Source: Ancylothrix sp. D3o (GTDB lineage Bacteria > Cyanobacteriota > Cyanobacteriia > Cyanobacteriales > Oscillatoriaceae). Taken from it: a stretch of DNA of 64,000 nucleotides. The stretch is from positions 1-64,000 of the forward strand of contig NZ_JAMXEX010000014.1 of assembly GCF_025370775.1 (NCBI RefSeq), given 5' to 3'. A model generated the notes under the pieces. That model was not told the DNA's origin, did no database searches, and saw only the letters and a program-made list of their open reading frames with translations. The position numbers and the translations under genes were made by a program. Numbering within the stretch: position 1 is the first letter of the stretch; every line of letters begins with the position of its first letter. This document shows positions 62,364-64,000 of this stretch, piece by piece.

Positions 62364-63413
62364 ATGACCAATACAGAACTAAAAAACCCCAATTCTCCCA
62401 AATTAGGCACAGTTAGACGCAAAGCAGTCAGCGTGTCTCCAGAGGAATTAGTAAAAACGTCCTATTTCCAATCAGAAAACCTCCTACCGGCCATTTTTCA
62501 ACCGGCAGTAGATCGATTAAACCTCGCCGCTTGGGCTACCAACAATCGAGAGTCAATTACAACGCAATTATTGAAGCAGGGCGGAATACTTTTTCGAGGC
62601 TTTGAAGTCGGCGGAGTAGCCGGTTTTGAGCAGTTTATACAAGCAGTTGGCGGCGAGTTGTTAGAATATTCTTTTCGCTCAACTCCGCGTAGTCAACTAA
62701 GCGGAAATATCTACACTTCCACCGAATATCCTGCCGAGCAATTCATCCCCCTTCATAATGAAATGGCCTATTCTAAAAATTGGCCTCTAAAAATTGCTTT
62801 TTTCTGCGTTAAAAAAGCCGAACAAGGAGGAGAAACCCCGATAGCTGACAGCCGCAAAGTTTTTGAACGTATCGATCCAAAAATTAAAGAGCGCTTCGCA
62901 CAAAAAAAAGTTATGTATGTGCGAAATTACGGGGCCGGTGTAGATTTGCCCTGGCAAAATGTCTTCAATACTGATAGCAAAAGTGAGGTAGAAAACTATT
63001 GCAATAAAACCGGAATTCAATTAGAATGGGGAAACAATAATCGCTTAAAAACTCGCCAAATTTGTCAGGCCGTTGCCCAGCACCCCCAAACAAAAGAAAT
63101 GGTGTGGTTTAATCAAGCCCACCTCTTCCACATTTCCAGTCTCGATACCGCCGTTAGGAGAGAGCTTTTAACTTCTTTTAAAGAAGAAGATTTACCACGC
63201 AATGCTTATTACGGCGATGGCTCGCCAATCGAAGATTATATTTTAGATGAAATTCGCTATTGCTATCAGCAAGAAACGATAATTTTTCCTTGGGAAGAAG
63301 GAGATGTTTTACTCCTAGATAATATGTTAGCCGCGCACGGGCGGACACCTTTTGTAGGTTCGCGTCGAGTTGTTGTAGGGATGGCAGAAGGATTTAGCTG
63401 TCAAGAAATTTAG
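62364..63413 (+). CDS. TauD/SyrP-like Fe(II)/2-oxoglutarate dioxygenase
   Basis: 349 residues. Iron ligands of the clavaminate-synthase-like fold: His and Glu in FIPLHNEMAYSKNWP (about residue 130) and the distal His in DNMLAAHGRTPFVG (about 325), followed by the 2-oxoglutarate-binding Arg in GSRRVVVGMAE. SyrP-like members hydroxylate the beta carbon of carrier-bound amino acids, most often Asp in siderophores. Placed between an NRPS C domain and the next NRPS in an iron locus, beta-hydroxylation of Asp is the best guess. That hydroxy-carboxylate would chelate Fe(III). The Asp-activating module is not in the window. Confidence 0.88.
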   Translation: MTNTELKNPNSPKLGTVRRKAVSVSPEELVKTSYFQSENLLPAIFQPAVDRLNLAAWATNNRESITTQLLKQGGILFRGFEVGGVAGFEQFIQAVGGELLEYSFRSTPRSQLSGNIYTSTEYPAEQFIPLHNEMAYSKNWPLKIAFFCVKKAEQGGETPIADSRKVFERIDPKIKERFAQKKVMYVRNYGAGVDLPWQNVFNTDSKSEVENYCNKTGIQLEWGNNNRLKTRQICQAVAQHPQTKEMVWFNQAHLFHISSLDTAVRRELLTSFKEEDLPRNAYYGDGSPIEDYILDEIRYCYQQETIIFPWEEGDVLLLDNMLAAHGRTPFVGSRRVVVGMAEGFSCQEI

Positions 63414-63435
63414 ACACATGAAAGGAAGTGTAAAT

Positions 63436-64000
63436 ATGCAAAAAGAAACAATCGAAGGGTTTAGACTATCTCCGCAGCAAAGGCATTTGTGGGAGGTTCA
63501 ACAAAATAATTGCAAACATTCCTATCGGGTTCAGGGTGCAATTCTTCTTGAAGGAAATCTCGAAAAAGAACTTCTTAAAACGGCGCTGCAAAAGGTGGTA
63601 AACCGGCACGAAATTCTGCACACAAACTTTCCCTGCTTGCCAGGAATGACATTACCTCTGCAAGTGATCACTAGCGCTGATGAAATTTCAGTTGCAGAAC
63701 ACAATTTGAGCAGTTTGCCTACTGAAGAGCAAGAATCTAAAATCGAAGAATTTATTCAAGAATTAAACCGGCTTACTTTTGATTTTGAGCGCGGCACACT
63801 TTGGCATATTTATTTACTCACTCTAGCGCCAGACAAACACCTATTGCTGGCAAACTTTTTGGCCTTAATTGCAGATAGTTATACCCTGAAAAACTTTACA
63901 CGCGAACTCAGTCTTTTTTACTCAACCAGTGGGGGCGGTGAAAACCTATCTGATGAACCAATGCAATATGCAGATATTGCTGAGTGGCAAAATGAGTTAC
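63436..64000 (+). CDS. NRPS, N-terminal condensation-like domain (cut by window edge)
   Basis: The first 188 residues, preceded by AGGAAG. A condensation-fold N-terminus is clear: FRLSPQQRHLWEVQQNN, then LLKTALQKVVNRHEILHTNF and LTFDFERGTLWHIYLL. Where HHxxxDG should stand the sequence reads LANFLALIADSYTLKNF, so both His are missing. It may be a non-catalytic interface-type domain that recruits the adjacent hydroxylase, or a divergent active C domain seen in cyanobacterial NRPSs. It ends with PMQYADIAEWQNEL, the usual motif before the C-terminal half. The rest lies beyond 64000. Confidence 0.85.
   Translation, partial: MQKETIEGFRLSPQQRHLWEVQQNNCKHSYRVQGAILLEGNLEKELLKTALQKVVNRHEILHTNFPCLPGMTLPLQVITSADEISVAEHNLSSLPTEEQESKIEEFIQELNRLTFDFERGTLWHIYLLTLAPDKHLLLANFLALIADSYTLKNFTRELSLFYSTSGGGENLSDEPMQYADIAEWQNEL

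Follow-up and report, generated by a model that had tools for sequence, protein, structure and literature searches.

A predicted cyanobacterial siderophore unit with a stand-alone aspartate hydroxylase, an HH-less condensation-like domain and a free condensation domain

The stretch analysed here (the window), i.e., 64,000 bases of Ancylothrix sp. D3o DNA that form the first part of a 135,629-base contig and share its coordinates, probably carries a unit of a siderophore assembly line in which aspartate would be hydroxylated on its carrier before it joins the chain. In this unit, a condensation-like domain without the HHxxxDG motif (interface or I domain) would hold a TauD enzyme, and a free condensation (C) domain would carry out the condensation. 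Judged by its code, the A domain of the 63418-66672 protein would activate aspartate and load the adjacent PCP, while the dead I domain at the N-terminus of the same protein would keep the stand-alone TauD enzyme (62364-63413) near the Asp-PCP. The enzyme would insert a 3-hydroxyl with Fe(II), O2 and α-ketoglutarate, and the peptide bond to the upstream chain would be made by the free-standing C domain (60697-62241), docking in trans. The same unit is present again further on, with C domain and hydroxylase fused.

Layout and gene content of the cluster

The succession of C, TauD, HH-less domain, A and PCP is present twice, first in three separate proteins and then with C and TauD fused (Table 1). 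The start of the assembly line presumably is a fatty-acyl-AMP ligase (FAAL), a reading based in part on a PF00501 domain with an ACP. Together with two hydroxylases that each precede an Asp module, a reductive release step and a TonB receptor, such a start would place the cluster among those of the cyanochelin type. The siderophore role is supported by the receptor, which scores above the cut-off of its model, and by nearby TonB, ExbB and ExbD genes. The latter, located at 28979-32419, represent an energiser set for uptake.

Beside the siderophore genes, a gene of the penicillin-amidase family (481 bits) is found at 33841-35958. Penicillin-amidase-like genes are also present in the clusters of L. 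boryana (L025) and Methylomagnum (L031), so that a later removal of the fatty acyl start is possible. At the other end of the cluster, the thioester reductase and the class III aminotransferase (contig 72473-78263) suggest a C-terminal amine, for which myxochelin B provides a parallel. An aminotransferase gene likewise lies behind the last NRPS gene in Gloeothece citriformis PCC 7424 (L027).

Table 1. Features of the siderophore cluster in the window and its continuation on the contig.
Feature	Position	Strand	Remarks
TonB-dependent siderophore receptor	38574..41357	-	TIGR01783 234.3 bits (cut-off 223.5); PF00593, PF07715
Fatty-acyl-AMP-ligase-like domain, ACP, C-A-PCP, Cy-like-A-PCP (assembly-line start)	42171..50873	+	
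NRPS C-A-PCP-E	50983..55677	+	A code DFWNIGMVHK; carrier GGDSI
NRPS C-A-PCP	55677..58958	+	A code VDWVVSLADK
PanP-type aspartate 1-decarboxylase	59016..60710	+	TIGR03799 629.1 bits (cut-off 606.1)
Stand-alone condensation domain, intact HHIISDG	60697..62241	+	PF00668 401.7 bits, no other domain
Basic C-terminal tail IQKLKIAKRKATKK of the stand-alone C protein, candidate docking tag	62197..62238	+	function inferred
Stand-alone TauD/TfdA-type Fe(II)/α-ketoglutarate hydroxylase, predicted aspartyl-PCP β-hydroxylase, 349 aa	62364..63413	+	PF02668 160.4 bits (cut-off 27)
Basic N-terminal element PKLGTVRRKAV of the hydroxylase, candidate docking tag	62397..62429	+	function inferred
I-A-PCP protein, 1084 aa	63418-66672 (contig; open at 64000 in the window)	+	Condensation 228.9 bits, AMP-binding, AMP-binding_C, PP-binding
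HH-less condensation-like (interface, I) domain	63457..64000, on to contig 64770	+	PF00668; own clade
HHxxxDG position, reads LALIADS	63859..63879	+	both His lost, Asp kept
NRPS C-A-PCP-C-TauD	contig 66672-72425		
NRPS HH-less C-A-PCP-thioester reductase	contig 72473-76828		TIGR01746 362.7 bits
Class III aminotransferase	contig 76872-78263		

Pairing of hydroxylase, I domain and free C domain

The 62364-63413 gene, which an earlier note on this DNA had assigned to a stand-alone hydroxylase of the TauD/SyrP type, is indeed an intact open reading frame of the TauD family. Positions aligned to its H, E and H residues, which we take to be the iron-binding ones, are conserved in 94/94, 94/94 and 93/94 relatives among the matches listed. 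The enzyme is 84% identical to that of Microcoleus sp. FACHB-DQ6, and its identity to the stand-alone TauD protein at the CcsK position of the cyanochelin B plasmid (AP017310) amounts to 55.8%. A search of NCBIfam with the hydroxylase revealed no fitting model (best score 29.2 bits, cut-off 268.3), and a PDB sequence search returned two distinct sequences only (entries 1y0z and 9yut).

A tree of 94 TauD domains among the matches listed, from which pieces of 240 amino acids or less had been dropped, consists of two main branches of 38 and 56 rows (both 99). On one of them lie the majority of the C-fused enzymes, among them the ones from Azospirillum, Janthinobacterium and Variovorax as well as the fused copy of the window's cluster; the other contains most stand-alone enzymes, including the window enzyme and all stand-alone proteobacterial ones. 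Hence, in this 94-row tree, the stand-alone hydroxylase of the window is not a member of the C-fused (IβH-Asp-like) branch. The fused or stand-alone state is an unclean branch marker, with seven stand-alone and six fused rows on the opposite branch. MobD of tistrellabactin, which was restored in a later tree that leaves out three long rows, groups with proteobacterial stand-alone enzymes (96), and it shares one 33-row branch with the window enzyme (SH-aLRT 93, not starred), within which the closer forks are weak (47 to 79). According to the accessible part of its description, MobD is a TβHAsp enzyme (PMC10391617).

The I domain and the hydroxylase occur together. With cut-offs that were placed at gaps after the scores had been seen, I domains (at least 411 bits) and the hydroxylase (at least 333 bits; next best 306) were found in the same 25 of 386 cyanobacterial genomes. 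In these genomes, an I domain lies at most 3 kb downstream of the hydroxylase in 50 of 51 cases, and a hydroxylase at most 3 kb upstream of the I domain in 50 of 53. Among the matches listed, 72 of the 90 I domains for which over 1.5 kb of upstream DNA is available directly follow a TauD domain (42 stand-alone, 30 fused); for ordinary C domains that are first in their reading frame, the number is 8 of 105, and three of those eight are divergent I domains. Of the 18 listed I domains without TauD directly upstream, two (L058, L080) have a fused TauD further up, and most of the remaining ones come after a protein whose last domain is a C domain and whose short tail is mostly basic. I domains behind such a dangling C domain without adjacent hydroxylase are found in L099, L104, L108, L088, L097, L110, L107 and others. 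Since TauD was found elsewhere in the genome in all 13 of the 18 that were searched (in L047 as broken pieces only), a single hydroxylase might act on several modules in trans.

Between the hydroxylase and the I module, a gene for a class I SAM methyltransferase is present in Gloeothece (L027:17152-17970) and Trichormus (L030:16063-16878), and a methyltransferase-like frame is also located upstream of the I domain in L080 and L082. Possibly, these genes are involved in further modification.

The earlier note had proposed that the stand-alone hydroxylase works together with a catalytically dead interface domain. This pairing is supported by the Asp code and by the separate clade of the HH-less domain (see below), but the proposal left the acting C protein (60697-62241) unconnected, and the unit rather consists of C, hydroxylase and I-A-PCP. 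Moreover, in the proteobacterial loci seen, the HH-less domain follows a C-fused hydroxylase, whereas stand-alone enzymes go without an I domain. As a dead I domain cannot make a peptide bond, the bond would have to come from another C domain. Among the matches listed, the closest NRPS domain upstream of the I domain is a C domain in 86 of 91 cases, and no further domain comes after this C domain save sometimes TauD; four I domains have no such domain in reach and one follows a broken I-A frame, while 11 further I domains with too little upstream DNA were left out of the 91. Ordinary first-in-frame C domains (97 among the matches listed) follow a C domain in 2 cases, a carrier in 61, an epimerase in 26 and nothing in reach in 8. 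Because the dangling C domain is nearly universal before I domains, the free C domain probably docks in trans, and the 60697-62241 protein is likely the acting C domain of the window unit.

The same observation suits a second explanation, in which the HH-less domain would serve the dangling C domain as a spacer that keeps C and A-PCP in a productive geometry after the displacement of C, and in which the hydroxylase finds the carrier or the A domain alone. All 99 I domains recognised among the matches listed and in the plasmid loci are first in their open frame, at the protein N-terminus, and a dangling C domain precedes 86 of 91; the 18 of 90 I domains that are kept without adjacent TauD and the proteobacterial stand-alone relatives that lack an I domain also fit a spacer. 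Co-variation was analysed in 59 of 76 pairs among the matches listed, those without a full A domain or dangling C domain being left out. The partial correlation between I and C given A and TauD was 0.288 (p 0.003), and the I domain may therefore serve the C domain; however, that between I and TauD given A and C was higher (0.451, p 0.001), with 0.305 (p 0.001) for A-TauD and 0.080 for C-TauD, and these p values, like those below, are too small, since partial Mantel tests overstate significance among related sequences. When only Asp modules were considered (n = 36), the I-TauD value was 0.586 (p 0.001) and the A-TauD value -0.219. Within the stand-alone branch (n = 29), I-TauD was weak (0.236, p 0.022) and A-TauD stronger (0.688), which may reflect different substrates; for the 16 Asp pairs of this branch, values of 0.485 (p 0.001) and 0.576 were found for I-TauD and C-TauD, respectively. 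The higher I-TauD correlation and the occurrence of I domain and hydroxylase in exactly the same 25 of 386 genomes argue against a mere spacer, which we consider improbable. The reading in which the I domain holds the hydroxylase is preferred.

A candidate for the means by which the separate proteins would find each other is a short basic element. It is found at the end of dangling C domains, between C and TauD when the two are fused and at the beginning of stand-alone cyanobacterial hydroxylases; the window has it at the end of the lone C protein and at the start of the hydroxylase. Scored with a basic motif of roughly K-[FL]-x-x-x-K-[RP]-K, which was fitted after viewing the tails and in several trial versions, dangling C tails before a separate TauD among the matches listed contain the motif in 36/39 cases (mean net charge +4.9), C-TauD linkers of the fused form in 22/35 (+4.6), dangling C tails without adjacent TauD in 5/13 (+4.6) and the N-termini of stand-alone hydroxylases with an I domain in 27/43 (+3.6). 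The listed controls gave 8/157 for ordinary C-A linkers (-4.0) and 2/100 for I-A linkers (-3.3), and proteobacterial stand-alone hydroxylases gave 1/7 (-1.3). The first two trial motifs matched 52 and 42 of 104 dangling tails among the matches listed and 0/157 controls; a third one, for hydroxylase N-termini, matched 16/46 of the listed stand-alone, I-partnered enzymes and 0/11 proteobacterial ones. Since composition shuffling yielded 26 to 43% motif matches in the basic classes, much of the tag signal is charge itself. It is conceivable, if rather doubtful, that the I domain acts as a hub for docking in two directions and recognises this tag, and that cyanobacteria thereby rewire a carrier-recognising (TβH-type) hydroxylase to interface docking, with C, hydroxylase and A-PCP exchangeable as separate proteins.

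Nature of the HH-less domain

The first domain of the 63418-66672 protein is, as the earlier note had it, condensation-like and devoid of HHxxxDG, the aligned stretch being LALIADS. The second histidine is retained in 0/95 related domains of more than 400 amino acids among the matches listed and the aspartate in 95/95, counts that are slightly circular because the HMM by whose whole-domain score these relatives were picked had been seeded with 12 HH-less domains. In ordinary C domains, the second histidine is present in 241/249 and the aspartate in 248/249. Given this difference in the histidine, LALIADS is not a sequencing slip.

In a tree of 106 C-family domains, a single branch (SH-aLRT 99) separates all 15 HH-less domains from the HH-bearing rows of the starter, elongation, E and Cy-like kinds; the subtypes were named by position and motif and not by reference sets, and two Cy-like rows and two rows with HN for HH were not counted as HH-less. 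The rows derive from 109 domains in the window, its contig continuation (L021) and 21 plasmid loci, after removal of three C-type domains of less than 320 amino acids, one of which is the Janthinobacterium HH-less domain. Both domains of the window's cluster and both of the cyanochelin B plasmid (AP017310) belong to the HH-less clade, as do the domains behind a C-fused hydroxylase in Azospirillum oryzae and Variovorax. The window domain does not group with ordinary starter C domains, and this identity was rejected on the grounds of the separate clade and the lost motif.

The I model, built on the 12 HH-less domains, gives the window domain 620 bits and ordinary C domains at most 302. Over the 386 cyanobacterial genomes, where the best four candidates per genome were scored, it left a clear gap between scores of at least 411 and at most 302 bits. 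A scan of named genomes revealed I domains in at least 74 loci. When 102 I domains among the matches listed were combined with two C domains in a tree, the I domains formed one side of a branch (100), and the window domain fell into a 42-row set (98), in which the partner is a stand-alone hydroxylase of the stand-alone branch in 33/42 listed cases. Its nearest listed relative, from Microcoleus sp. FACHB-DQ6, is 68% identical. Outside cyanobacteria and Proteobacteria, I domains were seen in KSB1, Acidobacteriota, Nitrospirota, Chloroflexota and Myxococcota (L083, L089, L090, L092, L098, L101, L103, L105, L107, L109, L111, L112, L115).

A model of the Microcoleus I domain, made from 70 sequences, has a complete C fold (pLDDT 91.9, pTM 0.91), and among solved structures it matches C domains best (Z 40.9, rmsd 2.6, 417 residues). 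The X-domain of glycopeptide NRPSs (4TX2, 4TX3) has a C-type fold as well and matches the model with Z 36.0 (rmsd 3.4, 418 residues) and Z 35.5 (rmsd 3.8, 420 residues). X-domains recruit P450 enzymes in trans, an instance of oxygenase recruitment by a C-type fold, but at another position of the assembly line and with another class of oxygenase. A P450-recruiting X-domain was rejected as the identity of the HH-less domain, the fold match being no better than to other C domains. With its condensation fold, the loss of HHxxxDG and its place in a clade with HH-less domains of known siderophore loci, the window domain would be classed as an interface domain.

Decay of a former C domain to a remnant without function would explain the loss of both catalytic histidines, but the domain has kept its full length, its predicted fold is intact, it has conserved residues of its own that are not common to C domains (Q7, G1, N179, F325, K373 and others) and it is present in cyanobacteria, Acidobacteriota, Nitrospirota, Myxococcota and Chloroflexota; on the grounds of this conservation, decay was discarded as highly improbable. 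The idea of an ordinary C domain, be it of the starter or elongation type, that continues to condense with an unusual motif is hardly credible, in spite of the overall C fold and of starter C domains among the nearest solved structures (Z 40.4), given the separate clade (SH-aLRT 99), the absence of the second histidine in all 95 listed relatives and the intact-motif C domain directly upstream.

Substrates, predicted product and known systems

Judged by its code, the Asp-activating domain that the earlier note expected beyond position 64000 is present: the A domain of the 63418-66672 protein, which has a GGHSL carrier motif and no epimerase, carries the code DLTKIGHVGK. The codes were read from an alignment of all A domains at the positions of the GrsA numbering, and the same anchor Asp residue results when LgrA is aligned. 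We take DLTKIGHVGK, found in both HH-less modules of the cluster, to be an aspartate code, DFWNIGMVHK (50983..55677, C-A-PCP-E) to specify Thr, with an epimerase, VDWVVSLADK (55677..58958) β-alanine and DILQLGLIWK Gly, whereas DMYNFGVLW-, behind a domain with the Cy-type motif DxxxxD, is presumably Cys-like; one further module has the code DAEDIGTIVK. The β-alanine reading is in keeping with the PanP gene beside the module, and the PanP-type decarboxylase probably supplies the β-alanine. The product is predicted to be acyl-X-Cys-derived ring-D-Thr-βAla-βOHAsp-Gly-βOHAsp with a reduced, perhaps aminated end.

Not all I modules appear to use Asp. Out of 102 among the matches listed, 15 have Asn-like codes, 8 His-like and 9 other ones, and 8 were unread. 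Some have DLTVIGEVGK-like (perhaps Asn) or DSALIAEVWK-like (perhaps His) codes; codes of these two kinds are found in L028:35093, L070, L071, L074, L076, L078; L048, L052, L054, L059, L061, L106, L050:10004 and L083. Units of β-hydroxy-Asn and β-hydroxy-His are possible products of such modules.

In the accessible parts of two papers, enzymes of the stand-alone branch are assigned 3R and those of the C-fused branch 3S products (PMC7100376; PMC12628792). Because of this rule and as neither module has an epimerase, the stand-alone enzyme of the window would be expected to yield L-erythro-β-hydroxyaspartate and the fused enzyme of the cluster the L-threo form.

The carriers of Asp modules with and without I domain were compared. 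In the proteobacterial loci seen, Asp modules without I domain have GGDSI in 9/9 and no epimerase in 7/9 cases. Among the matches listed, Asp I modules without epimerase have GGHSL (36), GGNSL (1), GGDSI (4) or no readable carrier (12), and those with an epimerase have GGDSI (10/10). The T_E-type (GGDSI) carrier that goes with TβH-Asp enzymes is not found in the window module, which has GGHSL instead. Thus, the window enzyme, on the TβH side by sequence, appears to have an I domain as its partner in place of a GGDSI carrier, and a stand-alone enzyme of the TβH branch with an I domain appears to be a cyanobacterial arrangement. In the literature as far as accessible, MobD of tistrellabactin (PMC10391617) and PtcA of potashchelin (PMC7100376) are, as predicted for the window enzyme, stand-alone TauD-type Asp hydroxylases; the stand-alone enzymes of the proteobacterial loci seen, however, go with a GGDSI carrier and no I domain.

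The closest known system is the cyanochelin B cluster (ccs genes) on plasmid 2 of Leptolyngbya sp. NIES-3755 (AP017310.1). As in the window, a protein ending in C is followed by a stand-alone TauD (CcsK) and an I-A-PCP protein (CcsL); there is also a C-fused TauD followed by I-A-PCP (CcsI), a thioester-reductase end and an adjoining receptor gene, and I domains stand behind both hydroxylases. The I pairing also holds for CcsK-CcsL, a module with an epimerase and GGDSI. Differences are found as well: in cyanochelin B, the C domain is part of an E-C protein, the stand-alone unit ends in an epimerase and PKS modules are present at the start, whereas in the window the C domain is a free protein, neither unit has an epimerase and the fused unit of the cluster comes last. 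In its accessible text, the cyanochelin B paper predicts D-threo for the stand-alone unit and reports β-OH-Asp at both positions of the product (PMC12628792); the word "interface" does not occur in its main text.

Interface domains and the two hydroxylase branches are already known. Interface (I) domains of siderophore NRPSs were reportedly described by Reitz et al. in 2019. Like the window domain, the known ones have a C fold without HHxxxDG and stand beside a siderophore β-hydroxylase; the window's partner enzyme differs in being stand-alone and on the other hydroxylase branch. According to the accessible parts of the papers concerned, antiSMASH 8 contains profiles for siderophore hydroxylases and interface domains (PMC12230676), a 2023 survey treats I as a bacterial C subtype (PMC10212144), and clades CyanoBH_Asp1 and CyanoBH_Asp2 were named from cyanochelin clusters (PMC12971057). 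In a literature search that mostly covered openly accessible text, and which therefore is weak evidence of absence, no paper was found on I domains with stand-alone hydroxylases in cyanobacteria. Within the same text, there was no statement of the pairing of an I domain with a non-GGDSI carrier for cyanobacterial enzymes of the TβH side, of the dangling-C rule or of the basic tag, part of which may be contained in Reitz et al. (2019).

For NRPS engineering, a practical question still to be answered is how stand-alone hydroxylases pick the correct carrier out of the many in an assembly line. In the unit described here, one step is split into three proteins (C, hydroxylase and I-A-PCP), and the fused form in the same cluster offers an internal control. 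Across loci, the rule would be that an I domain goes with a GGHSL carrier and the lack of one with GGDSI, and the basic tag is a concrete docking candidate to mutate. When the products of cyanobacterial siderophore clusters are predicted, no condensation step should be assigned to an N-terminal HH-less domain.
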